A stretch of 40,836 bases of DNA from a virus, in the IMG/VR virus record IMGVR_UViG_3300020202_000048, positions 1 through 40,836 of that record; one strand, 5' to 3'. The translations under genes were made by a program, and so were the position numbers. The notes beneath the pieces are model-generated. The model saw nothing but the letters and a program-made list of their open reading frames with translations, did not search any database and was not told the origin of the DNA. Of this stretch, positions 1-40,836 are shown piece after piece (the first letter of the stretch is position 1; the number at the start of each line of letters is the position of its first letter).

Positions 1-739
1 AATCAACTTCAACCTCATCAGTTATAAGAGCAGCTTCACCATCCTCATTAAGAAGACGTTGCATTGTTGTATACGGTATCCACACAAGAGGATAATTTTT
101 ACCCCATGAGTTTTTAGCAAGAAAGGCCTGTCGTTTGTCAGACGCTCCAATAATACAGACACAGTGACCTCCTCGAATATGTCCGAGAGATCCTTCACCA
201 ATCCAATGTTCAGTACCTTTGTGCTGAGGATTGTCGAAGTTGCTATACCAATTAACACCAATAACTACAGGAACATTTCCAGCAATAGCTGTTCGCATTT
301 CATCAACGGTAGTGGCCCATCTGTTTTCTTGAATAGCCCATCGTCGTTCAGGAGATCTTTTGCCTTTAAGAACATGGCCTTGATCACGAAGCACATCACC
401 GGCAGCTCGAACTGAAGTACCGTTATTATCACCCGGATTTGTATCAGGCCATATATCTATTTTCTTAGCTTCGTTCCATAGCCACGCATCATTAAATCGT
501 TGCTTATCGAGAATGGCTTTTGCCATAGACCATCCATACCCAACACAAGCACCTTCAGTACCTTGATCATGTTCCTCATGCCATGAAGGAAGGGGAAGGA
601 TATTTTCTACATTAGCCACCGCCCGTACAACCCTGAAAGGATATTTTTCAATATGCTTTGTGTCAGGCGATCGTCGTCGTCCGAGTGGACCAACAACATG
701 ATGTGACTCTTTTGGTTTTACAGGCTTTGGTTTTTTCAT
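1..739 (-). CDS. Papain-like cysteine protease with C-terminal peptidoglycan-binding domain (N-terminal 246 residues; continues across the join)
   Basis: This is the start-proximal part of a 334-aa protein. The reading frame runs off base 1 and continues without interruption at base 40709 down to 40444. The papain (peptidase C1) catalytic set is complete: oxyanion Gln59 in DQG, nucleophile Cys65 in GACVGYGWS, His192 in GGHCVCIIG and Asn210 in KNSWG. A basic, proline-rich tail of about 30 residues precedes the domain and I see no clear signal peptide. The start ATG lies 1 nt after the stop of the coiled-coil gene upstream, so the genes are probably co-transcribed. In C1 enzymes this set cleaves peptide bonds; here the target could be host surface protein, wall peptide or a phage virion protein. 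The fold is certain; the substrate is unknown. Confidence 0.9.
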   Translation of the reverse strand, partial: MKKPKPVKPKESHHVVGPLGRRRSPDTKHIEKYPFRVVRAVANVENILPLPSWHEEHDQGTEGACVGYGWSMAKAILDKQRFNDAWLWNEAKKIDIWPDTNPGDNNGTSVRAAGDVLRDQGHVLKGKRSPERRWAIQENRWATTVDEMRTAIAGNVPVVIGVNWYSNFDNPQHKGTEHWIGEGSLGHIRGGHCVCIIGASDKRQAFLAKNSWGKNYPLVWIPYTTMQRLLNEDGEAALITDEVEVD

Positions 740-740
740 A

Positions 741-1268
741 TTAGTGTTTTATTCCTTCAAGTTGATCCTCAACCGACTTATGAAGATCCTCTTTTGCGTG
801 ATCTATTTTGCTATCCTTAGCAGTTTGATATTGTTCAAGTTGTTTTTTGAAGTCCTCAACCTGACCTTCAAGGATTATGATACGGTCCAGTTTGTCTTGT
901 CGCTCTTCTTTGAGATCATTATTCTCCTTGAGCAGAGCATTATATTTATCTTCGAGAGCCTTATATTTATCCTTCAAATCATTGTGTTCGTTTTGAAGGG
1001 TTATAAATTTATTGCCGAGATCATTGAAGCTCGCTTGAAGACCATCAAATTTATCCTTGAATTCCTTTCGGAGTTCCTCTTTATCTAGCTTCTGTTGCTG
1101 CGCATAAGCAGCCCATTCCTTACCGATCATAATTTCACCGGACACCACAACATTCTGTGTTTCCGCGTTGTTCTTTCGGCGTCCAGCAATAATACCTAAG
1201 CTGGTTACTCCGACAGATGTTATGAGGGCGATGATTATTGGTGTCCAGTCCATATCGTTATTTTCCAT
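741..1268 (-). CDS. Membrane-anchored coiled-coil protein (BhlA/spanin-like architecture)
   Basis: This 175-aa protein has one N-terminal transmembrane segment (about residues 8-27, WTPIIIALITSVGVTSLGII) followed by GRRK. A long charged heptad-type coiled coil covers roughly residues 50-165, rich in DLKDKY and ALEDKY repeats. The start ATG overlaps the stop of the upstream membrane-protein gene (ATGGAAAATAA), which suggests translational coupling. An anchor plus a long coil, next to wall enzymes, resembles BhlA-type holin-like proteins or an inner-membrane spanin. It could also be a virion coil that spans the envelope. No sequence signature settles this. The gene is clearly real; the role is inferred from architecture and place. 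Confidence 0.75.
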   Translation of the reverse strand: MENNDMDWTPIIIALITSVGVTSLGIIAGRRKNNAETQNVVVSGEIMIGKEWAAYAQQQKLDKEELRKEFKDKFDGLQASFNDLGNKFITLQNEHNDLKDKYKALEDKYNALLKENNDLKEERQDKLDRIIILEGQVEDFKKQLEQYQTAKDSKIDHAKEDLHKSVEDQLEGIKH

Positions 1269-1578
1269 TAAGTATCTTTCCTTTCGCCTCTATACGAGTA
1301 TAGATCCGGATAATTCCGTACATCTTCAAAAGTCGCGCAACCGAAGACATCATAAAGAATGTAATTGTAGGAAGTGTAGGTGGAATGTGGGTTTTAATAT
1401 CCCCCAATACCCAGAAACTTGCGACCTGCAATCCGAGAACAAGAGCAAAGCCCGCTAGTAAATACTCCCAAGTACCGTTCGGAGTGAGGGTATGACGCCG
1501 TAGTTTGTTGATGTAAAACACCGACACACCGGTTGCTATTATTTCGGTGAAGATGAAGATTAGAAAGAATAAAGACAT
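1258..1578 (-). CDS. Small multi-spanning membrane protein, candidate holin
   Basis: This 106-aa protein has hydrophobic segments at about residues 1-22, 38-60 and 66-82, with basic loops and a basic tail. It sits between the GH6 enzyme gene and the coiled-coil membrane protein, two genes upstream of the papain/amidase pair. Phage holins are usually 70-150 aa with one to three transmembrane helices, so size and context fit. A second holin-like protein is encoded at 38974-39240, and only one of the two may be the true holin. The last 11 nt overlap the next gene. Confidence 0.6.
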   Translation of the reverse strand: MSLFFLIFIFTEIIATGVSVFYINKLRRHTLTPNGTWEYLLAGFALVLGLQVASFWVLGDIKTHIPPTLPTITFFMMSSVARLLKMYGIIRIYTRIEAKGKILNGK

Positions 1579-1581
1579 ATA

Positions 1582-2553
1582 TTAACTCGCTAGTTCTACA
1601 GCTCTTTCGATCCATAGTGTTCCAGCATTAGGTCCGCCATTACAATTCCCGTCCGACTCTCCGGGAAGTTTTACCCAACCGTGTGCATATACATCACCCT
1701 TGTCGATGATGACCGGATCTGATCCGAGCTTCTCGCCTGTAGGATTACACCAATCACCTTCTTTTGTGTTACCACCATTTCGTGAAATATCCACAATGAT
1801 CTGAAGACCTGATCGAAGGTTCTTGAGAACGTCTCGAGCATACGCTTCAGCTACATCAGTCTTTGCTCGTCCTGAAGTATTCACAGCAATACCGTGAGCG
1901 CGTTCAATTCCAGCACCCTTTACTCGTCCAGCCATATCATTAGCGGGGATCCACATAGCAGCTTCAACGAAGATTTTTGTGTTGCTGTTTTTTCGGAGAA
2001 TATCCACAGCAGCATTGATACATGGGTATGTAGTAGGTCGATCATTAAGAAGCCCAAGAGCATCAGGTTCAACGATGAAGACGCAAGGCTTGTTACCGGC
2101 AATTTGAACAGCCCATCCAAGACCACCAACCCATTTGTTGTAGTCTTCAACTGTTTTAAATCCACCGGCTGAATGTTGCTGAGCATCTCGATCAGGAATT
2201 GCATATACAACAAAAGCAGGGATTGTGTCCCCGCACTCTTCCATAGTTCTACGAACTAATGCAATATCCGCTTCACTACCATTTAGCCATACGAAACAAG
2301 GCTTATCAGCGATCTTTGTTTTAAGAAGTTGATAATCCTTATGAGACTTATTCATTTCAAGCCATGTATGGAGCTGAGTCTTGGCGTTGAAAAACTTTTT
2401 ACCTCCTGATGGTGGTGTAGGATCCTGTGGATCTGGTGGAGTCGGAGGTGTCGGTGTATTATTGCCGATTTTTGCAATAGCACCGAGAATTTCTTGTTGC
2501 TGTTTGTCAGTTTTAACTAATAATTCCTTTACTGTCGGATTTTTTATTGACAT
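1582..2553 (-). CDS. Glycoside hydrolase family 6 (cellulase/cellobiohydrolase-type) protein
   Basis: The protein is 323 aa if it starts at the ATG at 2553, which lies 9 nt after a TATAAT box; a longer open frame upstream would run through that promoter. Residues 1-30 form a helical segment, 33-50 a Pro/Thr linker (TPTPPTPPDPQDPTPP), and 55-320 a GH6 catalytic domain. The signature blocks appear in order: VVYAIPDRD (116-123), VFIVEPDALG (158-167), VDISRNG (254-260), DWCNPTG (267-273) and KLPGESDGNC (295-304) followed by GGPNAG. The Asp residues matching the family's catalytic and base positions (Asp123, Asp164, Asp301) are all present. GH6 enzymes invert beta-1,4-glucan bonds. The gene is downstream of the tail-fibre genes, so it may act as a virion depolymerase or a lysis-time glycanase. 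There is no signal peptide. Confidence 0.9.
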   Translation of the reverse strand: MSIKNPTVKELLVKTDKQQQEILGAIAKIGNNTPTPPTPPDPQDPTPPSGGKKFFNAKTQLHTWLEMNKSHKDYQLLKTKIADKPCFVWLNGSEADIALVRRTMEECGDTIPAFVVYAIPDRDAQQHSAGGFKTVEDYNKWVGGLGWAVQIAGNKPCVFIVEPDALGLLNDRPTTYPCINAAVDILRKNSNTKIFVEAAMWIPANDMAGRVKGAGIERAHGIAVNTSGRAKTDVAEAYARDVLKNLRSGLQIIVDISRNGGNTKEGDWCNPTGEKLGSDPVIIDKGDVYAHGWVKLPGESDGNCNGGPNAGTLWIERAVELAS

Positions 2554-2568
2554 GTTAGGTATATTATA
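2554..2568 (-). promoter_or_regulatory. -10 box upstream of the GH6 gene, near-leaderless
   Basis: On the minus strand TATAAT (2568-2563) is followed by 9 nt and then the ATG at 2553. Transcription would begin about 2-3 nt before the start codon. No Shine-Dalgarno is present. Confidence 0.55.
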
Positions 2569-2581
2569 TACTAAATTGCTG

Positions 2582-3259
2582 TTAAAAGAAAAACTTTGAT
2601 GTGTCCGCGGGAGGTGGCGCACCGCCTGACTCCTTCAATGTGACAACCATCGTAGAACTATGAGTACCACTACTAGTAGTGACGGTATAGCTTTGACCCG
2701 CTGTCGATCCAGCGCTTTTAAATTGAACATGAACAGATGTCCATGAGTCGAAACCTGTGGCTGAATAAAGTGTACCATACGAAGCATCTCCTGTGACACC
2801 CGGCACCTGATTTGTTGCTGCCATTACACCAACAACCATTTCATTTGATTGAGCAAGTGCTGCTGTAGCACCTGAAGCGTGGGTTGTAACCGCATCCGCA
2901 ACAGCTTCAGCAATTTGATCTAATGGAGTAGTAGCCGAAAGACCTGATATTTCAAAAAAGTATGCAGCGGAGTCGGCCCAATTACCCCCTGAATAAAATC
3001 GTGTTGTTTTTGAGCCTGTAGTGCTTACATTTAAGATCAACCACAATTCAGCACGTCGATCACCAATGTTTACAGTTTCGTTTAATTCTACCCATAGTTG
3101 GCTATGAGTAAGATCAGTAAGTGTAGGAGCATCACCTTCACCAGCAGCAAGAGCAACAACCGCAGCATTTCCAGCTGTAAAAGAATGAGCATGGTCCCAT
3201 TGTTGGACATACCCTCCACCTCCGTTTTTTGCTGATGATGATACTATTGCGTAAGCCAT
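2582..3259 (-). CDS. Putative virion/tail-associated beta-rich protein
   Basis: This 225-aa protein is rich in Ala, Ser, Thr and Gly and has an alternating pattern typical of beta-sandwich virion proteins. The N-terminus (MAYAIVSSSAK) has no signal peptide. The C-terminus ends in a flexible APPPADTSKFFF tail after a strand reading MVVTLKE. Its ATG overlaps the stop of the preceding small gene (TAATG), so the two are translationally coupled. It follows the long tail fibre and precedes the GH6 enzyme, which suggests an adsorption-apparatus or decoration role. I do not recognise a named family. Confidence 0.65.
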   Translation of the reverse strand: MAYAIVSSSAKNGGGGYVQQWDHAHSFTAGNAAVVALAAGEGDAPTLTDLTHSQLWVELNETVNIGDRRAELWLILNVSTTGSKTTRFYSGGNWADSAAYFFEISGLSATTPLDQIAEAVADAVTTHASGATAALAQSNEMVVGVMAATNQVPGVTGDASYGTLYSATGFDSWTSVHVQFKSAGSTAGQSYTVTTSSGTHSSTMVVTLKESGGAPPPADTSKFFF

Positions 3260-3503: not shown

Positions 3504-6500
3504 TTATGCTTGTACTCCATAAGCTAGTACGTCCCACTTAGTATCCGCTGCGTTATACATACACTTAAAGTACAACGTCTTGCCCGCTACTGTAGTAGTA
3601 GGAAGTGTGATACCAAGCGCTCGATAAATTGCATTGAAAGCAAGTGTTTGAGCTGATCCATTATCTTTAACTCTGATCCACAATTCCTGTCCGTCTGTTG
3701 GAGTTCCAGTTGGCGCACCAAATGTAGCACCAGCAGCAAGAGCTGTGACGGTGTACATATCATGATCATCAGCACTAGGAGTAGGTGTTGATGATGAAGC
3801 GACTGTTCCAACACGCTTAGTCATGCGCTTGTTGGTCATCGTTTGAGTATCAGTAGTTCCTATAACAGTTCCAGTAGGAACAGTTTTACCAGCCCATGAA
3901 GTGAGCGTTGCGCTGTATGCCTGTACGTTTGTACCAATCACAAGGCCGAGGTTTGTTCGCATTGCAGCATAGTCAGCAGAACCCAAGAAGGTTTGCATGT
4001 TTGCTGAAGGAGCAATACCAGCGTATGTAGTAAGGTTTGCTGAGTAAGCCTGTACGTTTGTACCAATCACTAATCCCAGAGTTGTTCGGACCTGAGCCGG
4101 AGTTCGTGAAGCCCAAGCTGAAGATACGGCAACTATAAAGTTGTCGGTGGTTGCAGTAAGACCAGCAATAGTAGTAAGATCGCTGTCCAAAGGCTGATAA
4201 GCAGAAGCAGCTGCGGAGGTTGTGAGATAAGTTGAGTTGTCATAAGTAATTGTTGTTCCTGATGCTTTTACAAATCCTGTTCCGTTGAGCTGTGCCTGTT
4301 TTGCAGCAAGATCAGTAGTGAGGTTTGTGATATCGGACTGAGGATGGGTGTGTGCTGAAGGAGCAAATGTTGCAGGAATACTTGTGAGAGAAGAATATGC
4401 GTGAGTGTGACTACTTGAAGCAGCATCCGTAATTCCATATCCTGCCAAAGTTGTAGGAAGACCTGAGGTGATATCGGCCCAAGCATGGGTATGTGAGGTT
4501 GATGCTTTACCGGCAAGTGCAGTATTTAAATCAGTTTGGTTAGAAAGAGTACCTCCGATAGATCCCCAGTTTACGGTTGCTGAAATTGCGGTCCATGCAC
4601 CATCTCCTCGAAGGAAGGTTGTATTGTCCGCTGTTCCTGATCCAAGTCGAGCAGCAGCAACGGTCCCTGAAGTAATATCGGCACCGGAGTGAGCATGAGA
4701 AGCAGCAGCATAATCAGTTCCGGCTACAGCAACAGAAACAACACCAGCAGTTGCCTTAAGAATTCCAGCTAATGAAGCAATACGAAGTTCAGCTGGAAGA
4801 TATACTTGTCCATTTTGATTTACAATAATTCGCTGTGCATTTGAAGCCGTTACATCCACAAGCGAAATTGAGTCTGCATCGTTGTATCCTGAAGACAATC
4901 TCCATTCTCGTGTACCCGGTTGGTTTGTTTTTAGTCGAAGTGTTGGAATTGAATATCCTTGAATATTGATATCTGATCCCGAGGTAATACCCGCAACAGT
5001 AAGACTACCCTGCATTGTCCAGTTTCCACTTGTTCCATCAACTGTGGTGTTTGGTGATGCAGAAGGTGTGCCGTGGTAGATATAAAGTGTGCCTTGATAG
5101 TTTCTAAAATAATGCTTTTTATATGTAGCAGTAGCATCATGTGCAATAGTGAGAGCTTGGTCCCCAGCATTGTTTAATACTACGTTCCCTGTAAATATTG
5201 CACCTGAAAGGTTGGCTTTGGCAGCAAGATCGGTAGTAAGGTTAGTAATATCTGATTGAGCATGAGTGTGAGTTGCACTTGCCTTTCCAGCTAAATCAGA
5301 AACGAGGTTGGTGATATCTGATTGAGCATGAGTGTGGGTACTACTTGCTTTCCCGTTGAGCTGAGTCTGAATTGCTGAAGTAACCCCCGCAACATATCCA
5401 AGTTCAGTAGATGTTACAGCCGATACAGCAACCTTGCCGGAAGTATCGGAAGCCAACGCTCGAGAAGCAGTAAGGTTTGAAGAGACGATTGTTGTAGCAC
5501 CTCCGGTAATTGTTGCTTGCTTTGCGTTGAGCTGAGTTTGAATTGCTGAGGTTACACCGTTTACATATCCAATTTCAGTTGCAGTCGTTGTCGCTACTAT
5601 AATTTTTCCTGAAGCATCTGAAACGAGAGCGCGAGAAGCGGTGAGGTTTGTTGTAACAAGACCACTAATGGCACCGGTCATTGCTGCTCGTGCGCGTGTA
5701 TCTGTATAGTAAAGGTTTCCTGACTCAGCGATGTGTGAAGTATTCAAAACAACCACGCCAGTTTGACCGTTTACTGAAGTAACAGCATCGGTAGGTGAAG
5801 CAAGTTCAGACCAGTCAGCCATTGTTCCAGCAGTACCACCGTTATGAATGTATGTCTTACTAATATCACTTCGGATTGCAACATCTCCTTCTTGTGCAGT
5901 AAGTGCAAGTTGCGCTGCTTGTGAAGCAACAGTATATACATCAGTAAGTGCAAGAGCGTGAGTAGAGATCCGAGCATCAACAGCTGTATTAAAGTCAGTA
6001 ATATTTGCTGCAACGTGAGTGTGTCCTGAAGCAGCAGCATCAGTAATTCCATAACCAGCTAAGGTTGTAGGCTTTGAAGTGAGTGATGCAAAAGTGTGAG
6101 TATGAGAAGTATCTGATTTTAAGTTAAGAGCGTTCTGAAGATCTGTTTGATTTGAAAGTGTACCAACAATAGCTCCCCATGTAGGAGTTCCTGAAGAAAC
6201 AGGTATGTAAAATTCAAGGCCAGTACCATCTGAATTTACGCGGACCGCTTCAAGGGCATGACCTTTATAGGTATCGGGTGTATCGGTAAGTGAAATAAAT
6301 TCCCGCGCACCTCCGGCAGGATACATGTGTGATCGAGGCCCAGCAAAACGATCCCAGTTTATAGCAATAGCTTCCTCAGGAATTTTTACCTCACCATCAA
6401 GAAGTTTTTTTATGATTTCATCCGCTGTCGGAGCTACCGGAACATCAATTTTAGGGATAAGAGGCAAGATCAGCTTTCGAAGTCGATCATCTGAAGGTGT

Positions 6501-6839
6501 TTCACCATCTTTTACCTTAGGAATGAGAGGTTTAATGAGTCCAAGCAATTTATCTACTGTCGGAGTTTCACCGTGACGTGGTTCAGGGATCAGAGGCTCA
6601 ATCAACGCTAAAAGCTCCTCGCGTGAAGGAGTTTTTCCGTGGATAACTTCGGGGATATTGGGGATAAGTGGCTTAATAAGCTCCAAAAGCTCTTCTTTTG
6701 TTGGAGTATGGCCCGGCAAACCTTGAATTGTGACAACTTCAGCGCCCTTAAGTTCAATTTTTTGTTGATTTTTAAGAACCTCGACGATGTCTTCGAACGC
6801 TTTTTTATATAATTGGTAGAGTTGTCGATCTTTTTCCAT
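3504..6839 (-). CDS. Long tail fibre protein with repeated shaft
   Basis: The protein is 1111 aa. Residues 1-30 are a charged helix that probably attaches to the virion. Residues 40-145 contain four to five tandem units of about 20-22 aa with the pattern HGxTPxxxELLxLIxPLIP. Residues 190-900 are a shaft of fibre repeats, including many copies of SHTHxxxxIT, LAGYGITDAA, NLTTDLAAK and TSAIQTQLNAK, as in phage tail-fibre families. The last 120 residues form a beta-rich tip (TPTDGQELWIRVKDNGSAQTL). The gene has its own extended -10 promoter. Such trimeric fibres bind the host surface; the receptor is unknown. The repetitive DNA could recombine or be mis-assembled. Confidence 0.9.
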   Translation of the reverse strand: MEKDRQLYQLYKKAFEDIVEVLKNQQKIELKGAEVVTIQGLPGHTPTKEELLELIKPLIPNIPEVIHGKTPSREELLALIEPLIPEPRHGETPTVDKLLGLIKPLIPKVKDGETPSDDRLRKLILPLIPKIDVPVAPTADEIIKKLLDGEVKIPEEAIAINWDRFAGPRSHMYPAGGAREFISLTDTPDTYKGHALEAVRVNSDGTGLEFYIPVSSGTPTWGAIVGTLSNQTDLQNALNLKSDTSHTHTFASLTSKPTTLAGYGITDAAASGHTHVAANITDFNTAVDARISTHALALTDVYTVASQAAQLALTAQEGDVAIRSDISKTYIHNGGTAGTMADWSELASPTDAVTSVNGQTGVVVLNTSHIAESGNLYYTDTRARAAMTGAISGLVTTNLTASRALVSDASGKIIVATTTATEIGYVNGVTSAIQTQLNAKQATITGGATTIVSSNLTASRALASDTSGKVAVSAVTSTELGYVAGVTSAIQTQLNGKASSTHTHAQSDITNLVSDLAGKASATHTHAQSDITNLTTDLAAKANLSGAIFTGNVVLNNAGDQALTIAHDATATYKKHYFRNYQGTLYIYHGTPSASPNTTVDGTSGNWTMQGSLTVAGITSGSDINIQGYSIPTLRLKTNQPGTREWRLSSGYNDADSISLVDVTASNAQRIIVNQNGQVYLPAELRIASLAGILKATAGVVSVAVAGTDYAAASHAHSGADITSGTVAAARLGSGTADNTTFLRGDGAWTAISATVNWGSIGGTLSNQTDLNTALAGKASTSHTHAWADITSGLPTTLAGYGITDAASSSHTHAYSSLTSIPATFAPSAHTHPQSDITNLTTDLAAKQAQLNGTGFVKASGTTITYDNSTYLTTSAAASAYQPLDSDLTTIAGLTATTDNFIVAVSSAWASRTPAQVRTTLGLVIGTNVQAYSANLTTYAGIAPSANMQTFLGSADYAAMRTNLGLVIGTNVQAYSATLTSWAGKTVPTGTVIGTTDTQTMTNKRMTKRVGTVASSSTPTPSADDHDMYTVTALAAGATFGAPTGTPTDGQELWIRVKDNGSAQTLAFNAIYRALGITLPTTTVAGKTLYFKCMYNAADTKWDVLAYGVQA

Positions 6840-10352: not shown

Positions 10353-12356
10353 TTAGTATTCTCGCCCGCCCGGAGTCTTACCTTTTTTCGCTTTCTCTGC
10401 TTTCCACTTATCGTATTCAGTTTTTAATTGAGCTTTATTCAATCGAAGTTTATCGCTCGTGATCAAATAATCACGGAAGGCAGGTTCAGTTGCGGTAAAG
10501 AATTTGATTGCATCCTCACCGAAGATTTCAGCATTTTCAACTTCTTGAGCAAGTGCAGGAGTAAGGTTGAAAGGCTTGATCGTTCCATCAGGCATAAGAA
10601 TACCTTTTTCTTTTCCTCGAATGGTGTATCCACCTTCCATACCACCCTTTGTAACTGTCTTCGCGATCTTAGCTGCATCATATTTAGCAGCAAGTTTTGC
10701 GTATGCTTTTGCGTTCTTTTCAGCTTCGAGCTTAGCTTCTTTAGCAAACTTCTCACGTTGAGTCTTAAAGTGAAGGGTATATTTTTCAACAATACCAAGT
10801 GTCTTACGATCAGCTTCATTTTGTAGTTTGAATACTTCCTTCCAGATATCCTCTTCTGTTTTTGAAAGGTCGCCCTTAGTCTTGAGAATTTCCTCATCCT
10901 TAGAAAGGTTGATTTCATCCACAGTTTCATTGAGCTTGAGTTCAATCTCACGATTTTCCATTTCGTATGAGGTTCGGAGTTTTTGAGCTTGCGCTTGATA
11001 CTTCTGTTCAAGAGTAGCAATAGCCTGAGGCGCTGCACCGGTAGTATTCAACGCTCCAAGTTTTGCCAACATACCTGTCATATAGTTCTTAGCAGCAAGT
11101 CGGTTCTCTTCAACTTGATCAGCTTCAATAGCAAGCTGTTTCTGATTTCGTTCGATAGCAAAATTAGCCTGAGCGCGCATGTTATGCTCCTCAGTTTTTG
11201 CTCGAACTTCAAGAAGTTTGATTTCCTCTTCTGCTTGTTTTCGTCGCTGTTGAACAAGACCCACCTGTTGAGGTGTTCCGAAATAAAGTTCACGATATTG
11301 TTCAGGAATACTTTGTTCAAGAGCAATTTGTTCTTGATAAACCTCTTTTTCAGGAATAAGAGACTCAAGCGCTCGTCGATCTGAAGGATTTTTCATAGCA
11401 CCAAGATAATCGTCGAGTGTCTGAACTTCTCGAGCTGTGTATGTACCATCAGGGTTCATGACATATCTTCGATTGTCCTCATATCCATCAGAGTATTGAA
11501 CACGCCAACTTCCATCAGGATTTTGAATTTCTCCTGTTACCTCCACTGAAGGATTTGCTGTGATTTTAGCTGCAATATTACTTACATTTCCACCCATTTG
11601 CTGATATTGCATCAGAGACTTTTGGAAGTCCGGATTTTGCATAGCTGCTTCGAACTCTTGAGATGATCCGAAAAGTCCAGCAAATTGATCAGTGAAACTT
11701 TCAAGGATAGCTTTTTGCTTGTCCTTCTTTTCGTTCTTGTTTACCCACGGATCATTTGTAACTGAGTCCATCTTCATTCGAGCATTGCCGAGTGTTTGGT
11801 TGAAACCAGCGATTGTCTTTGGGTTAAAGGTATAAGAAGTAAGAGCCGATGTTTGGCTCTTCAACTGAGCTTGTTTTTCTGCTGCCTTTGCTTGCGCTTG
11901 TGATCGAGTAAGTCCTGCATAATCATCATCAGCAATACCAGCAAGACCGTATTGTTTTGCAAGACTTTTAGACTCACCACCAGAAAGAGTTACAGGCGCT
12001 CGATAGGTTGAGAAGTAAGATGTAGGAATACGGTAATTTGGATCACTTTGATAGTCTCCAATTTCAGACATTGGAACACCGAAGCCGGTAGCTTCTTTGG
12101 TGATCGCAGAATTATCATATTCTCCACGTCCTGCTGCTCCATACTTCAGAGCGTCTTGATAAGCCTGACTTTGATTTGTTATACCAGATGTTCCCGCTGG
12201 TGATTTAGGAGCTGTATTACCATAAGACAAGGTTTCACCCACGGCGATCTTGTTTGGATCTCCTGACTTATATCCAGTCAAGCTGGATACTGGTACACCT
12301 AAGGCTTTTGCAATCTTGCTTAGGCTATCCCCGGGTTTTACGACGTAGGTTGCCAT
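10353..12356 (-). CDS. Virion protein with N-terminal LysM domain and coiled coils
   Basis: The protein is 667 aa. Residues 4-45 form a LysM domain (YVVKPGDSLSKIAKALGVPV ... IAVGETLSYG), a fold that binds N-acetylglucosamine polymers such as peptidoglycan. A low-complexity linker follows, then residues 330-570 form Gln/Lys/Glu-rich coiled coils. There is no transmembrane segment or catalytic motif. The gene is 9 nt from the 1160-aa ejection-type protein and downstream of tail genes. I infer an internal virion protein that contacts the wall during DNA entry. The LysM call is firm; the virion role comes from context. Confidence 0.8.
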   Translation of the reverse strand: MATYVVKPGDSLSKIAKALGVPVSSLTGYKSGDPNKIAVGETLSYGNTAPKSPAGTSGITNQSQAYQDALKYGAAGRGEYDNSAITKEATGFGVPMSEIGDYQSDPNYRIPTSYFSTYRAPVTLSGGESKSLAKQYGLAGIADDDYAGLTRSQAQAKAAEKQAQLKSQTSALTSYTFNPKTIAGFNQTLGNARMKMDSVTNDPWVNKNEKKDKQKAILESFTDQFAGLFGSSQEFEAAMQNPDFQKSLMQYQQMGGNVSNIAAKITANPSVEVTGEIQNPDGSWRVQYSDGYEDNRRYVMNPDGTYTAREVQTLDDYLGAMKNPSDRRALESLIPEKEVYQEQIALEQSIPEQYRELYFGTPQQVGLVQQRRKQAEEEIKLLEVRAKTEEHNMRAQANFAIERNQKQLAIEADQVEENRLAAKNYMTGMLAKLGALNTTGAAPQAIATLEQKYQAQAQKLRTSYEMENREIELKLNETVDEINLSKDEEILKTKGDLSKTEEDIWKEVFKLQNEADRKTLGIVEKYTLHFKTQREKFAKEAKLEAEKNAKAYAKLAAKYDAAKIAKTVTKGGMEGGYTIRGKEKGILMPDGTIKPFNLTPALAQEVENAEIFGEDAIKFFTATEPAFRDYLITSDKLRLNKAQLKTEYDKWKAEKAKKGKTPGGREY

Positions 12357-14468: not shown

Positions 14469-15200
14469 CTAATTATTTTTGGTAATGCTGACCACCCGAT
14501 CTCCCGAGTAGTTGATCTTCCATGTCGAAACCCCATTGAAGATTGATTTAAGACTATCATCCGCGTTGTAACTCAGAACATAAACCTTACCCAACTGATT
14601 GTCTCGAACCGTCTTTACTCTTCCGTAAGAGTCATAAGTAAGAGTCGCTGCGTTCAATCCGGTTGTTGCTCCACCGAACACCAATGAAAGAACGTATGCC
14701 ATTGTAGCAGCATCGTTCGCTCCTACCGGAGTAGCAACTTGGACCGGCAGAGTGAATGTTTCCGGTCCAGTATGTACGTTAGTTCCATTAAAGGTGTTAT
14801 TACCATTAAAGGTATTGTTTCCACCCCATATTGTATTGTCGTTTGCATCAGGCTTAAGGTCGATAGCAGCGTTCATGAGAGCTAGTTGATCTTTCAAATC
14901 AGACCAATGCTCCGCGGTAAGCGTCATTTGTACCAATTCATCCGCTTCGTGAGTCTGAGCAGTAGTGCCTCCAAGACCTCGATCTGAGGCAAGGGCGATA
15001 GTAATGTAGTTACCACCTCCATCTGTACCTTTTCCTGTATATCGAACGATCTCACGCTTTGTAGTAGATGCACGATTGATAACTAAATATCCGTTTGTGG
15101 GAGTAGGGAGAGTTGTAATGTAGAAGTTTCCAGCGCCAACAGAATTCCATTTTGTTAGTATTGTTGTCTGAAAAAAGTTTTGGACATTTTCGATTGCCAT
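14469..15200 (-). CDS. Short tail fibre/appendage with YD-like C-terminal repeats
   Basis: This 243-aa protein starts at MAIENVQNFF, 9 nt after a TATAAT box; the longer open frame would begin inside the nozzle gene. Residues 30-115 form an N-terminal beta domain (YLVINRASTTKREIVRYTGK). Residues 137-150 have the trimeric-fibre repeat NTFNGNNTFNGTN, followed by NDAATMAYVLS. Residues 185-243 carry three YD/RHS-like strands (LTYDSYGRVKTV, LSYNADDSLKSI, INYSGDRVVSI). It lies next to the nozzle gene, where podoviruses keep appendage genes. The YD ending is unusual on so short a protein. Confidence 0.75.
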   Translation of the reverse strand: MAIENVQNFFQTTILTKWNSVGAGNFYITTLPTPTNGYLVINRASTTKREIVRYTGKGTDGGGNYITIALASDRGLGGTTAQTHEADELVQMTLTAEHWSDLKDQLALMNAAIDLKPDANDNTIWGGNNTFNGNNTFNGTNVHTGPETFTLPVQVATPVGANDAATMAYVLSLVFGGATTGLNAATLTYDSYGRVKTVRDNQLGKVYVLSYNADDSLKSIFNGVSTWKINYSGDRVVSITKNN

Positions 15201-15218
15201 GTTGAAAATATTATACCA
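15201..15218 (-). promoter_or_regulatory. Extended -10 promoter of the short-fibre gene, overlapping the nozzle stop codon
   Basis: Minus strand TGGTATAAT (15218-15210) is followed by 9 nt and the ATG at 15200. The TAA inside the box is the stop codon of the nozzle gene, so promoter and terminus are superimposed. Confidence 0.6.
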
Positions 15219-21263: not shown

Positions 21264-22981
21264 GCTGTTTGTTGTTGCATCATCTGGCTATTGTTAAACA
21301 TACGACCAGTTGCCTGACCTGTTGGCTGAGCCGGACCTCCCGCAGCAGGATCACCTCCCATAGGATTTTGAGGCTGCTGCATTTTCTGATCCTCGAACTG
21401 CATCGCTTGCTCAATTTCATCAGTAGTCCAATCCATAAGTTCGAGCTGCTTTCGCTTCGCGATCTTAAGCGCTACAGGGTTATCGGCAAAATTTGCAATA
21501 GTGTACTGAGCTTTCTGAAGTGCAAATTGATCAAGAGCATCAGCTTCAGACTTCATAATTACCTGACACTGATAACCTTCTGGCATGAGCCAATCTGAAG
21601 GATAGATATCCTTCTTGTATAACTCTCCATCGGCACCCTTCTTGTACAGAGTAAGAATTCCGTTAGTGTTGTTAGACAAAAGTTCGTAGAAAATTTCTCC
21701 GATCTCTTCCCATGCGCGTCGGTAGTGTTTTGAAGAAGTGGTGTTTCGCTGTCCTGAGTTCTGAAGACTAAGTTCAATTTCACCAAGAGTGGTTCGACTC
21801 TTAGTTTGCTCTCCTCGTTCAGTAGCAGTTTGCGCAACAGAAGATTGAATAAGATCCTTTAAGAAGCCGATCTGCTGAGTAGTATCGTTTAGAGGCTCGA
21901 TGCGAACTTGCTGCAAAACTTCTGCTGGATTTCCCGGCACGCCATACATTCCGAAAGGTTTTGGATCGAAGGCTTTTGGCTGGAACGTACCATTCATTGT
22001 GTTGAAGAAGTACATACCGAAGTTTCGATATGCACGGTTTTCCACATCTTGTGAGATGTACATATTCACCACCTTGTTGATTGTTCGAACAGAGTCACCC
22101 TTTCCATCACACCAAATGTCATTGAGGTCAGGATCATCAGCCCATGTAACAATAGGAAGTCGTCCAATACCAAGAGCAAGTTTAATTGGCTTGTTATAGA
22201 GAACAACTTTATCAGCACCAAAAATAATCAGGTGTCTTACGAACTGATTTTTTTCTACATCCCATACCATCTTGTAGCTCTCGTTTATTTCAACAAGAAC
22301 TTCTGAAGCGTTGTAGTCATCGTAGTTACTAGCACCAAGATCGCGGAGTCGCTGTACTTTTTCAAGGTAGGCTTCCTGAGTATTTTTCGCCTGAATAATT
22401 CCTTCTTTTGTATCTAAATATGCCTTGAGTTCGAGCTTCGCTTCACCATCGTATTTTCGGTTCGCAAGAATTTCTCGGAGTGGTTTGAAAATTCCTGTTC
22501 GAATAATGTATTGCGCGGAGTTGAGGTTAAGAGGATTTACTCGAGGAGATATTTCAATATCATACGGATCAATAAGATCAATGAAAATTTCCCCCGCGCT
22601 CATTCCAACTATTTTGAAAGACCTTCCTTGAAGGCCCACCACTTTTTTATCTACTTGATCAAGAATATCTAAACGTAGTTTGTCGTAGTAGTATCCCCAA
22701 ATTTCATCCACAATAATTTCTCCGTTCTTGTGCTTATTGGTTCTACCCCTAGACTTGAAACGCATTTCTGGCGGTTCATCAATTTTTGAAATCCATGTCT
22801 GCACGGTTTCGCGCATTACCGGAATGTTGATCGCTTGTCGCTGCGTCAACCGATTTGTGTCTACCTTATCACGATAAAGAGAATAGTTTTCGTTCCATTG
22901 TGAGAAGCGTCGTTTCTTAAATGCAATCGACTCTTCTTTTTCTTTGCGATGTTCGCTGAGTAGTTTTTCTTTTAATAGCAT
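21260..22981 (-). CDS. Portal protein
   Basis: The protein is 573 aa and starts at MLLKEKLLSEHRKEKEESIA, 9 nt after TGGTATAAT. A longer open frame begins inside the terminase gene and would cross the promoter. Portal features are an N-terminal charged helix, the central wing (EIFIDLIDPYDIEISPRVNP), then the long helix region MYISQDVENRAYRNFGMYFF and VAQTATERGEQTKSRTTLGEI. The C-terminus is rich in Gln, Met and Pro (QQPQNPMGGDPAAGGPAQP). It lies directly downstream of the large terminase. The dodecameric portal is the DNA entry channel and tail attachment site. Context and layout make this call strong. Confidence 0.88.
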   Translation of the reverse strand: MLLKEKLLSEHRKEKEESIAFKKRRFSQWNENYSLYRDKVDTNRLTQRQAINIPVMRETVQTWISKIDEPPEMRFKSRGRTNKHKNGEIIVDEIWGYYYDKLRLDILDQVDKKVVGLQGRSFKIVGMSAGEIFIDLIDPYDIEISPRVNPLNLNSAQYIIRTGIFKPLREILANRKYDGEAKLELKAYLDTKEGIIQAKNTQEAYLEKVQRLRDLGASNYDDYNASEVLVEINESYKMVWDVEKNQFVRHLIIFGADKVVLYNKPIKLALGIGRLPIVTWADDPDLNDIWCDGKGDSVRTINKVVNMYISQDVENRAYRNFGMYFFNTMNGTFQPKAFDPKPFGMYGVPGNPAEVLQQVRIEPLNDTTQQIGFLKDLIQSSVAQTATERGEQTKSRTTLGEIELSLQNSGQRNTTSSKHYRRAWEEIGEIFYELLSNNTNGILTLYKKGADGELYKKDIYPSDWLMPEGYQCQVIMKSEADALDQFALQKAQYTIANFADNPVALKIAKRKQLELMDWTTDEIEQAMQFEDQKMQQPQNPMGGDPAAGGPAQPTGQATGRMFNNSQMMQQQTA

Positions 22982-22999
22982 GTTAAAAATATTATACCA
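22982..22999 (-). promoter_or_regulatory. Extended -10 promoter of the portal gene
   Basis: Minus strand TGGTATAAT (22999-22991) lies 9 nt before the portal ATG, in the 28-nt gap after the terminase stop. Confidence 0.6.
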
Positions 23000-25041: not shown

Positions 25042-25542
25042 CTATTGTGTGTTGTCTTCGACAACACGGCCCGCCTCGCTCGGTGCCACGTCTACGGCCT
25101 CGGCTTCATGGACCACGGGCGCGGGTGCGCTGTCCTTTGAATAGTTGACTATGTTTATTTGTACGTTAGGCGGTGCGGGTTCGTCGTCTTCGGTATACTT
25201 TGCCTTTGCCAGTGTCTTTAATACAAACTTACTCACGTCCGCTTGTAGCTTGACAAGGTCTATATCATATTGTTTATTATTAAGGTCTATATCTACATCA
25301 ATAATATTGTCTAAATTTCGCTCAGCTCTTTTGACACGTTCTATATCGCGCTCAACGCTTAGGGATAGCCACACGGGCCGGAGTTGGGTCAGATTGTCCG
25401 CGTATGTTTCACTATAGCCCGCTTGAATGGCACTCGCTCGGAGGTTTCCGAATGTTTCGCTCTTAGGATTGCGCCATAATGCAATGGTCCGAAGTTGTCG
25501 CGGGTCTTTTAGGTCTTCTATTTTCTCGGGTACTGTTGACAT
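25042..25542 (-). CDS. Putative terminase small subunit
   Basis: This 166-aa protein starts at MSTVPEKIEDLKD, 9 nt after a TATAAT. Residues 38-55 (FGNLRASAIQAGYSETYADN) match the helix-turn-helix of small terminase subunits (the A-x-x-AGYS pattern). A helical oligomerisation region follows (RDIERVKRAERNLDNI), and the C-terminal 45 residues are a Pro/Ala/acid-rich tail. Small terminases recognise viral DNA and start packaging. It is the first gene of the late cluster, with the RHH-like gene and large terminase next, although 436 bp of control DNA lie between. A recognition site in that DNA is possible. Confidence 0.62.
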   Translation of the reverse strand: MSTVPEKIEDLKDPRQLRTIALWRNPKSETFGNLRASAIQAGYSETYADNLTQLRPVWLSLSVERDIERVKRAERNLDNIIDVDIDLNNKQYDIDLVKLQADVSKFVLKTLAKAKYTEDDEPAPPNVQINIVNYSKDSAPAPVVHEAEAVDVAPSEAGRVVEDNTQ

Positions 25543-25557
25543 ATTACGGATATTATA
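25543..25557 (-). promoter_or_regulatory. -10 box of the small terminase gene
   Basis: Minus strand TATAAT (25557-25552) then 9 nt and the ATG at 25542. No good -35 and no TG extension were seen. Confidence 0.5.
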
Positions 25558-26707: not shown

Positions 26708-27105
26708 TCGGTGGACAGGTTAGCACCTTAAAATCCTATCTGAAGCAATACAACAGTCCGCTTGTTGCTTACGCTTCAGAGATTGTCGAATTGCCTCGAT
26801 GGGTTGAGGCGGTATCTATTGCCGGAGCAGAAACACATTTTTGCACCACAGGGACAGCCGTTTCTAAAAATAATTGTGGAGGAATACGGCCAAAAGGCGC
26901 CGTGACCGGTTTCGTTGACTATTCAACAGATTTCGAGTCAGTAAAAGCTATTTCAGATCTTATCAATCGACCTTTATATAAGGATAAATCTATTGAGGAG
27001 ATGAACGGCATTTATTGTACGGAGGAAGTCGGATCACCGGACGGAGTTTGTCCACGATGGGAAAAAACAATTAACAAACACATAGACAATATAATATTCA
27101 ATTAA
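26704..27105 (+). CDS. Lytic transglycosylase/glucosaminidase-like domain (minus-one frame)
   Basis: From the slip site 133 residues are open to the stop at 27105. The nearest start-type codons are TTG at 26791 and CTG at 26740, but domain-like sequence already begins upstream (QVSTLKSYLKQYNSPLVAYA). The block VSIAGAETHFCTTGTA, then NNCGGIR, matches the active-site region of lysozyme-like wall hydrolases (Glu in AGAET). The downstream helix pattern (FESVKAISDLINRP) also fits. With the upstream membrane anchor it would make a 244-aa tethered wall enzyme in an early operon. Family assignment is by motif only. Confidence 0.65.
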   Translation, partial: LIGGQVSTLKSYLKQYNSPLVAYASEIVELPRWVEAVSIAGAETHFCTTGTAVSKNNCGGIRPKGAVTGFVDYSTDFESVKAISDLINRPLYKDKSIEEMNGIYCTEEVGSPDGVCPRWEKTINKHIDNIIFN

Positions 27106-34244: not shown

Positions 34245-35087
34245 ATGTATCCTACATCACGCAGACAACCAAATCCAATTAAAATTGCTCTTTATGTTTT
34301 TCTCGGACTACTCGGACTCATGATCATTTTCGGATCTTTCGGAGTCGTAGATGCCGGAGAACGAGGAGTGAAAGTGAGACTCGGTAATGTTGTTGGAACA
34401 GTAGAGTCAGGTGTTTATTTCAAACTTCCATTTATAGAAAGTGTAAAGAAGTTTGATGTTCGAACTCAGAGTGTAGTATATGAAAAGGAAAATCCATTAA
34501 CAGCAGCGTCGTCGGATCTTCAGGATGCAACGATCGCAACTGTTACGAATTATCATATTGACCCATCAAAGGTTGTCGAGATTTACCTTCAGTATAAAAC
34601 ACTTCAGGCGTTCGAAGACAATGTAATTCGGCCATCAGTTCGAGACTCAATTAAAACAGCATCAGCACAATTCACAGCCAATGAGCTTGTTGGAAAACGA
34701 GCAGAGTTCGCGGACCGTGCAGCTAAACTATTGAATGAACGATTTGCCGATAAGTACATCGTGATCGAACAATCAAACATCACCGACGTTAAATTCTCAG
34801 AGAGCTTTACTCAAGCCATCGAAGCCAAAGTAACAGCGCAACAGCAAGCTGAGAAGGCACGAAACGATCTTGTTCGTATCGAGCTTGAAGGTAAGCAAGC
34901 AATCGTGAGAGCGCAAGCAGAAGCTGAAGCCATCCGGCTCAAGTCTCAAGCAGCAAGCAATGAAAAATACGTTTCATTGAAGGCTCTCGAAGTTGAAGAA
35001 AAGGCTATTGAAAAATGGAATGGACAGCTACCTACACAGTTTATTCCGGGATCAACAATGCCATTTATAAATCTTAATAACCGCTAA
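34245..35087 (+). CDS. SPFH/prohibitin (HflK-like) membrane protein
   Basis: The protein is 280 aa. There is one transmembrane helix at about residues 12-33 (IALYVFLGLLGLMIIFGSFG), then the SPFH core: VDAGERGVKVRLGNVVGTVE, SGVYFKLPFIESVKKFDVRTQ, and the helix QFTANELVGKRAEFADRA. A coiled coil of AQAEAEAIRLKSQ type covers 190-240. In bacteria these proteins form ring or cage scaffolds around FtsH or in membrane microdomains. A phage copy next to an FtsH-class AAA+ ATPase is notable. It may modulate host membrane proteolysis or shield the envelope. The family call is firm; the role is inferred. Confidence 0.9.
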   Translation: MYPTSRRQPNPIKIALYVFLGLLGLMIIFGSFGVVDAGERGVKVRLGNVVGTVESGVYFKLPFIESVKKFDVRTQSVVYEKENPLTAASSDLQDATIATVTNYHIDPSKVVEIYLQYKTLQAFEDNVIRPSVRDSIKTASAQFTANELVGKRAEFADRAAKLLNERFADKYIVIEQSNITDVKFSESFTQAIEAKVTAQQQAEKARNDLVRIELEGKQAIVRAQAEAEAIRLKSQAASNEKYVSLKALEVEEKAIEKWNGQLPTQFIPGSTMPFINLNNR

Positions 35088-35985: not shown

Positions 35986-37257
35986 ATGGCTTTTGCTAGT
36001 AATTCTATGGGAAATAATTTTGATCCGAACGATCCATACAGTCAAATATTTTCAAACGTGAGTGCGAAATATGCAAAGATGATGCAGCAACAGCTCATGT
36101 CCCAGAATGTAGCCTTTACTACTTACAACATGCCATCAAGAAACAATAATATGAACCCATTTTCACCCGGAGATCGAGTTGTCCTTATTAAAGGAGAAGG
36201 TCGATCCCGATCAAAAGAACATAACCCTGAATGGGGACGTGACGGAGACTACATTGCCGGAAGAGTTGATGACGTAAACCGTCACGGCCCTGAGGTAGTT
36301 ATTAGTTGGGACAACGGATCACGAAATATATACAGCATATTAGATGCTAAGATCGTTCCGCATCACGACGCTCCAAAGCCTAAAGGAAAAACTGGATGGA
36401 AGAAAGGAGATAAGTCAGCAACACTTGATACTACTAAGCTCGATCCTCTTATTATTGATCCTGCAATCAAATCTGAAATAGTTGCGCTTCTTCAACAGCA
36501 CAAGCACGCTGATAAGATCTTCGATGAATGGGGTCTTGGTGAGCTTATTGAATACGGACGCGGTATGACTCTCATGTTCCACGGAGGACCGGGAACAGGT
36601 AAAACTTTCGGCGCACGATGTATTGCAAAGGCACTTGGTAAAGAACTTCTTGTGATCGGAGCAGCTGAAATTCAATCGTCAGAACCGGGAGGAGCTAACC
36701 GTGCTATTCAAGAAGCATTTGCAACTTGTGAAAAAGATAACAAGGTACTCTTTATTGACGAGTGTGACTCATTGATCGCGAACCGTGCAAACCTCGGTAT
36801 GATCCTTGCCTCAGAAATTAACACGCTCCTTACTGAAATTGAAAAGTGTGAAGGTGTAGTGATCCTTGCAACAAACCGTATCTCAGACATGGACTCAGCT
36901 CTTGAACGACGATTGTCATTGATCATCAAGTTCCCTAACCCATCACTTGAACAGCGTATTGCAATCTGGAAGGGATTGTTGCCAGCAAAAATGCCGTTGA
37001 ACATCGACGTTGAGATCGAACGACTTGCAGCACACGAACTAACCGGAGGTCTTATTAAAAACATTGTACTTCAAGCAGCTCGACTTGCAGTTGCCGACAA
37101 TGCAAAAGATGTACAGATGGCACACTTCGATAAGGCTATTGCTCGAGTAAAATCTTCACAAAACCTCATGGGTAAGAAGCGGGTACAGAGCGATGAGGTA
37201 GGTGTTGGAACAAGTACCAATAAGAAAGAAGTTATTAGAAAAATTGACGATCTATAA
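35986..37257 (+). CDS. AAA+ ATPase of the FtsH/Cdc48 class with N-terminal SH3-like domain
   Basis: The protein is 423 aa. Residues 58-125 (FSPGDRVVLIKGEGRSR, YIAGRVDDV, EVVISWDNGS) look like a KOW/SH3-like beta barrel. The ATPase core has Walker A HGGPGTGKT (199-207), Walker B VLFIDECD (254-261), sensor 1 ILATNR (Asn297) and arginine fingers in SALERR (308-309). A helical lid follows (HELTGGLIKNIVLQAARLAV). There is no protease domain or transmembrane helix. Such rings unfold or remodel proteins. The SPFH gene in the same operon suggests joint work at the membrane. Confidence 0.9.
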   Translation: MAFASNSMGNNFDPNDPYSQIFSNVSAKYAKMMQQQLMSQNVAFTTYNMPSRNNNMNPFSPGDRVVLIKGEGRSRSKEHNPEWGRDGDYIAGRVDDVNRHGPEVVISWDNGSRNIYSILDAKIVPHHDAPKPKGKTGWKKGDKSATLDTTKLDPLIIDPAIKSEIVALLQQHKHADKIFDEWGLGELIEYGRGMTLMFHGGPGTGKTFGARCIAKALGKELLVIGAAEIQSSEPGGANRAIQEAFATCEKDNKVLFIDECDSLIANRANLGMILASEINTLLTEIEKCEGVVILATNRISDMDSALERRLSLIIKFPNPSLEQRIAIWKGLLPAKMPLNIDVEIERLAAHELTGGLIKNIVLQAARLAVADNAKDVQMAHFDKAIARVKSSQNLMGKKRVQSDEVGVGTSTNKKEVIRKIDDL

Positions 37258-37503: not shown

Positions 37504-37518
37504 TATAATTATATACTT
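37504..37518 (+). promoter_or_regulatory. -10 box 9 nt before the 122-aa gene
   Basis: TATAAT (37504-37509), 9 nt, ATG at 37519. Same spacing as at the late genes on the other strand. The sequence is A/T-rich. Confidence 0.45.
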
Positions 37519-37887
37519 ATGAACGCATTATTTTTAGTCGCAGTATGGGTAGTATTTATTGGAGTTATGATCTACTCTTCTAACGCAAGTCGTCGATCTG
37601 TTTTTGGAAGAGAATTACCGGACTCAGAAACGGTACCATTCTTAGAACAGCATTTGAAAGACTACACCCTCAACGATATTACATGGAAGAGTGGAGGTAA
37701 GATGCTCTATGGAATGGGACATCTACCTTTTATTGCTCAAACGAGCAAGGGAATGTTTGGTCAAAGACCTCAATGGTATGTAAATGATTACGGTATGATC
37801 CCTAAAAATTCTAAAGCAGAGAAGATGATCAATGATCATTGGGATACGCTTCCAAAGCCATTAGAACCTAAGCTCAGCGATCTATGA
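37519..37887 (+). CDS. Membrane-anchored hypothetical protein
   Basis: The protein is 122 aa: one N-terminal transmembrane helix (LFLVAVWVVFIGVMIYSS, 4-21), then a soluble domain with MLYGMGHLPFIAQTSKGMFG and RPQWYVNDYG. It may be an envelope protein expressed with the SPFH module. Stop overlaps the next ATG by 4 nt. No known family. Confidence 0.6.
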   Translation: MNALFLVAVWVVFIGVMIYSSNASRRSVFGRELPDSETVPFLEQHLKDYTLNDITWKSGGKMLYGMGHLPFIAQTSKGMFGQRPQWYVNDYGMIPKNSKAEKMINDHWDTLPKPLEPKLSDL

Positions 37888-38500: not shown

Positions 38501-38595
38501 AAAAACTACTCCAAATAGTAATAAGCGCGCTCCTGTTTTGGATCGCGCTTTATACTTTTGAAATTGTTTATCAGGAGTTACAGAAATTACTGTAA
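38485..38595 (+). CDS. Second tiny membrane peptide
   Basis: The protein is 36 aa (VKQIKKLLQIVISALLFWIA, then LYTFEIVYQELQKLL), a basic start and one hydrophobic helix. The final 9 nt overlap the converging transglycosylase gene. The stretch contains the inverted repeat AGCGCG...CGCGCT. It could be a real peptide or only the leader of a terminator. Confidence 0.4.
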   Translation: MVKQIKKLLQIVISALLFWIALYTFEIVYQELQKLL

Positions 38596-38958
38596 GCAAC
38601 CGGCAACCTTCTTGCATGTTGTCCAAGCCCTGAACGTATCATTCCTATCGGAATAGATCCGGTAAGCCTTCGCAATGTTTAGAGCAATGTTGTCACGGCT
38701 TTCACCTTTCTTATAGTGAAGACATCCAACCTGCATTAAGTTCCATGAACCGAGGCAGGTTTTATGTTTGTCCTTCCAGTTGTGGAATTTTGGATTACAG
38801 TCAGACTCAGCCCAAGCTATATCCATTGCCATTTCCACATCCCAATCATACTTCTCAAACATAGGTCGATATTTTTCACAGTCAGCCGGAGAAGCAACGG
38901 CCTGTACGTTTATAGGTACCAGCAGAAAAGCTGCACCAATTAAAATTGCAGGTAAAAT
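38587..38958 (-). CDS. Secreted lytic transglycosylase with a non-ATG start
   Basis: The SLT/lysozyme-like domain has the block DIAWAESDCNPKF (Glu in AESD is the likely acid), CLGSWNLMQVGCLHY, and Cys residues that may form disulfides. The first ATG (38862) comes after a complete signal-like segment LPAILIGAAFLLVPINVQAVAS. That segment has no ATG/GTG/TTG; an ATT at 38958 is suitably placed, with AATACT 7 nt upstream. Alternatively the frame is entered by read-through of the TAG ending the holin-like gene, which is in phase. The coordinates use the ATT. Enzyme class is good; start is uncertain. Confidence 0.7.
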   Translation of the reverse strand: MLPAILIGAAFLLVPINVQAVASPADCEKYRPMFEKYDWDVEMAMDIAWAESDCNPKFHNWKDKHKTCLGSWNLMQVGCLHYKKGESRDNIALNIAKAYRIYSDRNDTFRAWTTCKKVAGCLQ

Positions 38959-39841: not shown

Positions 39842-40447
39842 TTAATTTAATTGGCTGATAATTGCGACCGCTTGAGCCATATCATCTTGAGCGTGTTTGA
39901 TCATTTCCAAAGCCCGCGCTTTTAGATCAACCTTCACCAGATCTCTAGCCCAATTATCGCTTAACTTTTTACCGTAACAAGTCTTACCGGAGTATGAACG
40001 ATGAGGATTGATATCCGAAGGCAATAATTTATATTGAGTCAGTTTCTCCGAAAGGAGTTTAGCCAACGCAACCTCCTGTGCTTTTGTCGGAAGTGTTGCA
40101 TCAAAATTTCCGGCAAGACATATGCCTATAGAGACGGAGTTTTTGCCAATCGTGTGCGCACCTTCGTCAGTATCCGCGCGACCTTGTTTAATTATACCCC
40201 TTTTATCAATATAGTAATGGTATCCAACATAGTAGCCGAGAGATGATTTAAAATTGTAGGCCACACGATGAAGTTCATTACACTGATCAAAAGTGAAATT
40301 AGAACTATCAGCTAAAGGAGCTGAGTCAGTTCCACCAGTATGATGCACAATAAGCATCTTCGGTTTATTGACTGTAGCAGTACGTCCTTTTGATGGAACA
40401 TACCGATCCCTTCTACCACTTAACAGTTCGGGATAAGTTATTCTCAT
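39842..40447 (-). CDS. N-acetylmuramoyl-L-alanine amidase (Amidase_2, T7-lysozyme-like endolysin)
   Basis: The protein is 201 aa. LIVHHTGG gives a zinc His (His35 or 36); INPHRSYSGKTCYG gives His149, Lys155 and Cys157, with the same spacing (6 and 2) as the His-Lys-Cys of T7 lysozyme. YYVGYHYYIDKRG, EGAHTIGKNSVSIGICLAG complete the PGRP-type fold. The C-terminal helix (ALEMIKHAQDDMAQAV) may be an extra. It has no signal peptide, so it needs a holin. ATGA overlap with the papain gene couples the two. Confidence 0.92.
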   Translation of the reverse strand: MRITYPELLSGRRDRYVPSKGRTATVNKPKMLIVHHTGGTDSAPLADSSNFTFDQCNELHRVAYNFKSSLGYYVGYHYYIDKRGIIKQGRADTDEGAHTIGKNSVSIGICLAGNFDATLPTKAQEVALAKLLSEKLTQYKLLPSDINPHRSYSGKTCYGKKLSDNWARDLVKVDLKARALEMIKHAQDDMAQAVAIISQLN

Positions 40448-40836
40448 TTTGTTTTGTTTAGATATTCTCGAGTCTTTGGACCGACTTGTCCAAACCCAGC
40501 ATCCGTTTGCTTAGCAATGCCACGATCAAGTTGAAGTTTTCGAACTTGAGTACGAGTAAGAGCGCCGAAGTAATTAGTTTCGTTTCCCGGAGATCCGGCA
40601 CCTTCAGATGCTACAGTATATCCATGATTGTTGAGCCATCGCTGAAGAGCAAGAACATCTTTGTTTCTCGATCCTATTTTAAGCTGTTTTGTAAATATGT
40701 AACCGACGAAATCAACTTCAACCTCATCAGTTATAAGAGCAGCTTCACCATCCTCATTAAGAAGACGTTGCATTGTTGTATACGGTATCCACACAAGAGG
40801 ATAATTTTTACCCCATGAGTTTTTAGCAAGAAAGGC
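40444..40836 (-). CDS. C-terminal part of the papain-like protease: peptidoglycan-binding domain
   Basis: This continues the gene that begins at 739; bases 40710-40836 repeat 1-127. From residue 255 on, KIGSRNKDVLALQRWLNNHG, then NYFGALTRTQVRKLQLDRGI and GPKTREYL, is a PG_binding_1 three-helix domain. It should hold the protease to the wall. The stop overlaps the amidase start by 4 nt. Confidence 0.88.
   Translation of the reverse strand, partial: AFLAKNSWGKNYPLVWIPYTTMQRLLNEDGEAALITDEVEVDFVGYIFTKQLKIGSRNKDVLALQRWLNNHGYTVASEGAGSPGNETNYFGALTRTQVRKLQLDRGIAKQTDAGFGQVGPKTREYLNKTK
40710..40836. repeat. Direct terminal repeat, identical to 1-127
   Basis: The 127 bases match the window start base for base. 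The length equals a common odd assembly k-mer, so it most likely marks a closed circular contig and not biological terminal redundancy. Confidence 0.9.

Follow-up and report, generated by a model that had tools for sequence, protein, structure and literature searches.

Cel6 of M. tuberculosis (Rv0062; 1uoz, 1up0), a secreted endoglucanase of glycoside hydrolase family 6 (GH6), hydrolyses cellulose in mycobacterial biofilm and disperses the biofilm (PMC10816823). Cellulose is made at Streptomyces hyphal tips by CslA-GlxA (PMC11022532), and the CslA-GlxA cluster encodes a GH6 enzyme, CslZ (PMC9040799). An earlier study described viral GH6 as an auxiliary gene (PMC8725595). We analyzed a viral record of 40,836 nucleotides (IMGVR_UViG_3300020202_000048 of IMG/VR; hereafter the window), in which the minus-strand ORF at 1582..2553 encodes a GH6 protein of 323 aa. 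The original prediction had called a phage GH6 unusual, a view that does not hold: besides the published case, an alignment-based scan of IMG/VR recovered 212 contigs with GH6 relatives (a few of them host DNA), and Streptomyces phage Gilgamesh gp72 was the only true phage relative in INPHARED. A phage GH6 as such is nothing new; the novelty lies in a branch with a shortened active-site loop and in its tie to tail proteins.

Judged by profile, sequence and predicted fold, the window ORF (2553..1582) is a genuine GH6 member. Its match to PF01341 (Glyco_hydro_6; E=9.8e-33, 114.7 bits, profile positions 14-300 of 305) lies far above the curated cut-off of 27 bits, and phmmer returned M. tuberculosis Cel6 (1uoz) as the top PDB chain (E 3e-35). 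The AlphaFold2 model, built from a 47-row alignment with public-record rows left out, reached a mean pLDDT of 87.4 and exceeded 90 across nearly all of the catalytic domain (residues about 50-323; 1585..2406, minus strand; delimited by profile, model and Foldseek). The predicted structure has the distorted TIM-barrel fold of Cel6. Foldseek matched it to 1uoz (E 1.7e-26, TM 0.76/0.81) and to T. fusca Cel6A (TM 0.75/0.86), with TM-scores by target length of 0.81-0.86 for endo-type Cel6 versus 0.51-0.53 for Cel6B exo-enzymes. A search of the BFVD viral structure library gave no GH6 fold. M. tuberculosis Cel6, the top PDB match by both sequence and structure (28% identity in the structural alignment), shares the endoglucanase fold and an equal set of catalytic Asp residues with the window protein, but differs in being a secreted bacterial enzyme with a full DAGHSRW loop and an RDC cysteine.

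Comparison with T. fusca Cel6A (E2; 1tml), numbered by 1tml chain positions counted in the phmmer alignment, located the conserved and the altered parts of the active site. D123, D164 and D301 of the window protein correspond to D79, D117 and D265 and are invariant among about 180 relatives. K295, E299 and W201 are the equivalents of K259, E263 and W162, and Y117, R122, S128 and E162 are also kept, together with nearly all invariant GH6 residues. The loop D156-A-G-H159-S-A-W162 forms a lining of the T. fusca Cel6A active site, and its residues H159 and D156 presumably contact substrate. The window loop (residues 195-202; 1948..1971, minus strand) is two residues shorter in the alignment, with YVDAGHxxW reduced to FVEA--AMW: E197 takes the place of D156 in the sequence E197-A-A-M-W201, and G158-H159 are absent. 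The protein thus lacks the D-A-G-[HN]-x-x-W loop, a usual rather than defining feature of GH6, and stays a member of the family as a variant. The RDC cysteine is replaced by A124 and its C125 partner is absent, so that the equivalent of the C80-C125 disulfide is lost; the C232-C267 pair is kept as C269 and C304, and NTSG stands where N-x-S-N is usual. The original prediction was therefore right about GH6 membership, on which the profile search and Cel6A overlay it had proposed agree with the PDB match, and about three intact Asp residues. It was wrong in taking all GH6 signature blocks to be intact.

The two-residue loop deletion was detected in 10/200 GH6 rows, duplicates counted. These represent the window gene, four phage lineages (L152/L153, identical in sequence; L163/L165; L207; L208) and a pair of genes from a single Saccharibacterium genome, G016 (L048=L222 and L209). 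The full-length loop was found, and the deletion was absent, in 86/86 bacterial, 66/66 marine-family phage and 8/8 actinophage rows. When the loop columns were left out, constraining all short-loop members to one clade raised lnL by 37 units over the free quick tree (p-AU 0.89), and uniting the window gene with the short-loop phage members gained 29 (p 0.83). The kinship of the window GH6 is nonetheless uncertain because its branch is very long (1.4-2.0), and quick trees place it unstably. The sequences are compatible with a single origin of the short-loop set, whose status as a clade is unproven given the long window branch and the choice of the group by its trait. The G016 pair shares the deletion and N-x-S-G with the window protein, and L209 is the top match in the Saccharibacterial class (39-40% identity); unlike the window gene, both are chromosomal and encode a signal or anchor sequence, extra N-terminal sequence and the RDC cysteine.

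The short-loop phage enzymes also share the DALGL motif and SAGGF with the window protein. In contrast to it, each is one domain of a tail-module protein of 523-1373 aa and has inserts near the C-terminal end, and the phages are mostly higher in GC than the window phage. In L208, GH6 forms part of a protein of 789 aa, after which come a minor tail protein (phrog_290) and the tape measure. The 523-aa protein of L207 has a tail fibre (phrog_8780) on one side and a tail-spike-like protein (phrog_7458) on the other, with an NlpC/P60 protein near the GH6 gene. The 1373-aa protein of L163 immediately precedes terminase and portal, and the 1040-aa protein of L153 lies downstream of a 1138-aa late protein. 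A phrog_14065 domain is present in the GH6 proteins of L207, L208 and L163, and the C-terminal phrog_14065 part of L207 has matches in Streptomyces phage proteins annotated as minor tail proteins.

Two other viral GH6 families are distinct from this branch. Most of the best 80 of the 212 IMG/VR contigs carry a signal-less GH6 of about 280 aa (most of L131-L206), here labelled "marine" as shorthand for a habitat inferred from the appearance of the contigs. Marine-family contigs reach 340 kb, a terminase was detected in 3/7 tested records, and the family was not found among isolate phages. It resembles the window GH6 in its lack of a signal and its presence in phage genomes, but forms a distinct clade with a normal-length loop and is located among metabolic genes (glycosyltransferase, radical-SAM and cytidyltransferase) rather than lysis or tail genes. 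The second family comprises Gilgamesh gp72 and its relatives (L005-L010, L199); like the window gene, these are signal-less and lie in a late tail region, but they represent a separate clade with a normal-length loop and another kind of N-terminal domain. Actinobacterial GH6 from Nonomuraea and from a Mycobacteriales bin (L044/L100) falls together with phage GH6 of the Gilgamesh type (L003-L010), and the sequences suggest that this phage family stems from a separate transfer. Some viral-classed records resemble bacterial chromosomes wholly or partly, with TonB receptor genes and secreted GH6. Among them, MT836874 ('Bacteriophage sp.', L002) was rejected as a piece resembling bacterial chromosome, and L004 as a GH6 with a signal peptide outside phage genes; L128, the top IMG/VR match, is probably host DNA with a secreted, Patescibacterial-like GH6.

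The window is a whole IMG/VR entry with a 127-bp direct terminal repeat (1-127 and 40710-40836), as fits a circular record or a complete genome whose assembly overlaps itself, so about 40.7 kb is probably the full genome length of this tailed phage. A terminase, an SU10-type adaptor and a major head protein can be recognised. Read along the minus strand, the genes run from a tail fibre bearing phage tail repeats (PTR; 3504..6839; PF12789 E=1.8e-23) through two small proteins to GH6, then to lysis-type genes. The second small protein (225 aa, 2582..3259) is a late protein without a family match in profile searches and ends 28 bp upstream of GH6. Beginning 3 bp past the GH6 stop, a holin-like membrane protein of 106 aa (1258..1578) has two TM-like stretches and gave no family match in profile searches. 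It is followed by a 175-aa protein with one TM segment and a coiled coil (741..1268), spanin- or lysis-accessory-like, and by a papain-like C1 peptidase (334 aa in total, phrog_16701) that runs through 2..739 and then 40444-40709 across the circular junction, the latter part holding a PG_binding_1 domain. An Amidase_2 endolysin (N-acetylmuramoyl-L-alanine amidase; 39842..40447) completes the cluster. GH6 is the only domain of the window enzyme, and peptidoglycan cleavage falls to the neighbouring amidase and C1-PG_binding proteins. Single-protein scans of IMG/VR with GH6, a 1160-aa late protein and the C1 peptidase found no close relatives; the terminase has relatives (L011-L015, 71-78% identity), but these are fragments and none contains GH6.

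Several other genes of the window are of separate interest. Close to an AAA ATPase (35986-37257) lies an SPFH/Band_7 membrane protein (34245-35087; PF01145 E 1.7e-35), a combination not usual in phages of 40 kb. A late protein of 667 aa (10353-12356) has a LysM domain (PF01476) at its start and is perhaps a virion-borne cell-wall binder. Of two small lysozyme-like ORFs (38587-38862 and 26791-27105), one is near PF18896 SLT_3, below the cut-off, and the other is glucosaminidase-like by eye.

The N-terminal part of the GH6 protein comprises helices at residues 8-29 (8-13 and 16-29; 2467..2532, minus strand), modelled with low to middling confidence and a possible tether, and a Pro/Thr/Asp-rich linker at residues about 31-52 (2398..2463, minus strand; pLDDT <50 at 32-39 and 42-49). 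A hydrophobic N-terminus was not found from either start codon (over the first 40 residues, KD19 peaks at 0.13), so the protein lacks the export signal of a secreted cellulase or auxiliary metabolic enzyme. An alternative GTG start at 2622 would lengthen GH6 and overlap the upstream gene; the ATG at 2553 is favoured because an exact TATAAT-N9-ATG element, a leaderless-type promoter and start, lies there (2551..2568, minus strand). Five such exact elements occur in the window (2551-2568, 15198-15215, 22979-22996, 25540-25557 and 37504-37521), every one at a gene start, against a chance expectation of 0.46, and 0/25 long genes of the window have a Shine-Dalgarno-like site. It seems that leaderless transcripts are in wide use in this phage. 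Gene order and family matches bear out the late-operon position beside tail fibres given in the original prediction, sequence and model agree with its Pro/Thr linker and short N-terminal helix, and the absence of a signal peptide is confirmed; its proposal of a role in the virion or at lysis time also appears supported.

The host may be a low-GC actinobacterium or a member of the Patescibacteria. C1 peptidases like that of the window occur in L163 (phrog_16701) and L153 (PF00112), and the L163 type is annotated in actinophages as putative lysin or cysteine protease; these sequence links point to actinophages. Among bacterial GH6 genes, those of Patescibacteria (10/287 genomes) belong to the nearest, one Saccharibacterium has the short-loop deletion, and certain Patescibacterial regions contain, in small numbers, Shine-Dalgarno-free gene starts of the TATAAT-N9-ATG type as well. 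A terminase search of 380 Patescibacteria and a major capsid protein search of 295 genomes of the Saccharibacterial class both returned nothing close and no related prophage. Although Patescibacterial genomes are tiny, about 3-4% of them encode a secreted GH6, and one such gene (L037) stands behind an apparent S-layer homology domain.

We hypothesize, with moderate confidence, that the window GH6 is a signal-less late β-1,4-glucan hydrolase that cuts a cellulose-like or other β-1,4-glycan at the host cell, from the virion or after lysis; from sequence, model and gene context we infer its activity and substrate, as well as the host and a location in the virion. An inverting, endo-type enzyme would be made late in the cytoplasm, along with tail and lysis proteins and without an export signal, and would act on such a glycan on or around the host cell. 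By the virion route, the N-terminal helix and Pro/Thr linker may tether the enzyme to the particle, where it would act during entry; by the lysis route, it would be set free at lysis and then act outside the cell. A glucan target on the host appears reasonable, and actinobacteria offer plausible ones. We lean slightly towards the virion because the nearest short-loop phage relatives are domains of tail-module proteins; the lysis route stays in play because GH6 adjoins the holin gene and stands alone. Against the favoured hydrolase reading, the window protein is without the tail domains of its short-loop relatives, its gene is on the side of the tail fibre that faces the lysis genes, and loss of the H159 equivalent together with the D156E change could weaken or alter its activity.

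The same gene arrangement lends itself to a narrower explanation, which we consider possible although the less probable one: a cytoplasmic enzyme absent from the virion, freed by holin, amidase and C1 peptidase, that degrades outer glucan or matrix and aids dispersal of progeny. The 3-bp gap to the holin-like gene, the amidase and C1 peptidase-PG_binding protein in the same cluster, the missing signal peptide and a leaderless-type promoter separate from the tail fibre all fit lysis-only action, as does the Gilgamesh-like fragment L006, where GH6 is also near an amidase-type endolysin; the short-loop phage relatives, as parts of tail proteins, and the tether-like helix and linker speak against it. 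The loop deletion, D156E, the lost disulfide, NTSG and the long branch would likewise suit a degenerate or repurposed GH6 that binds glycan or has another specificity, its altered loop unable to support cellulose hydrolysis. We regard this as unlikely, since the catalytic Asp set is complete, nearly every invariant residue is retained and the identical deletion occurs in secreted-looking, otherwise canonical Saccharibacterial genes. Least probable, and disfavoured here, is an auxiliary metabolic gene for host digestion of environmental cellulose, even though viral GH6 has been read in this way (PMC8725595) and the marine family lies among metabolic rather than lysis genes: an enzyme without an export signal would reach polymeric cellulose only once the cell lyses, and the window gene is in the tail/lysis region, away from early or metabolic genes. 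A broader proposal, for which we hold only tentative and rather doubtful expectations, is that the short-loop members are a distinct subfamily, moulded by losing the His-bearing active-site loop, and represent a phage tail depolymerase lineage acting on a β-1,4-glycan other than plain cellulose, of Saccharibacteria or their actinobacterial partners, and exchanged between phages and Saccharibacteria.

Phages thus appear to have acquired GH6 on several separate branches, one of which, marked by a shared active-site deletion, was built into tail proteins, a claim that can be tested. If active, these enzymes would imply cellulose-like coats on hosts without known ones (Saccharibacteria or low-GC Gram-positives) and would provide a source of glucanases with altered subsites.
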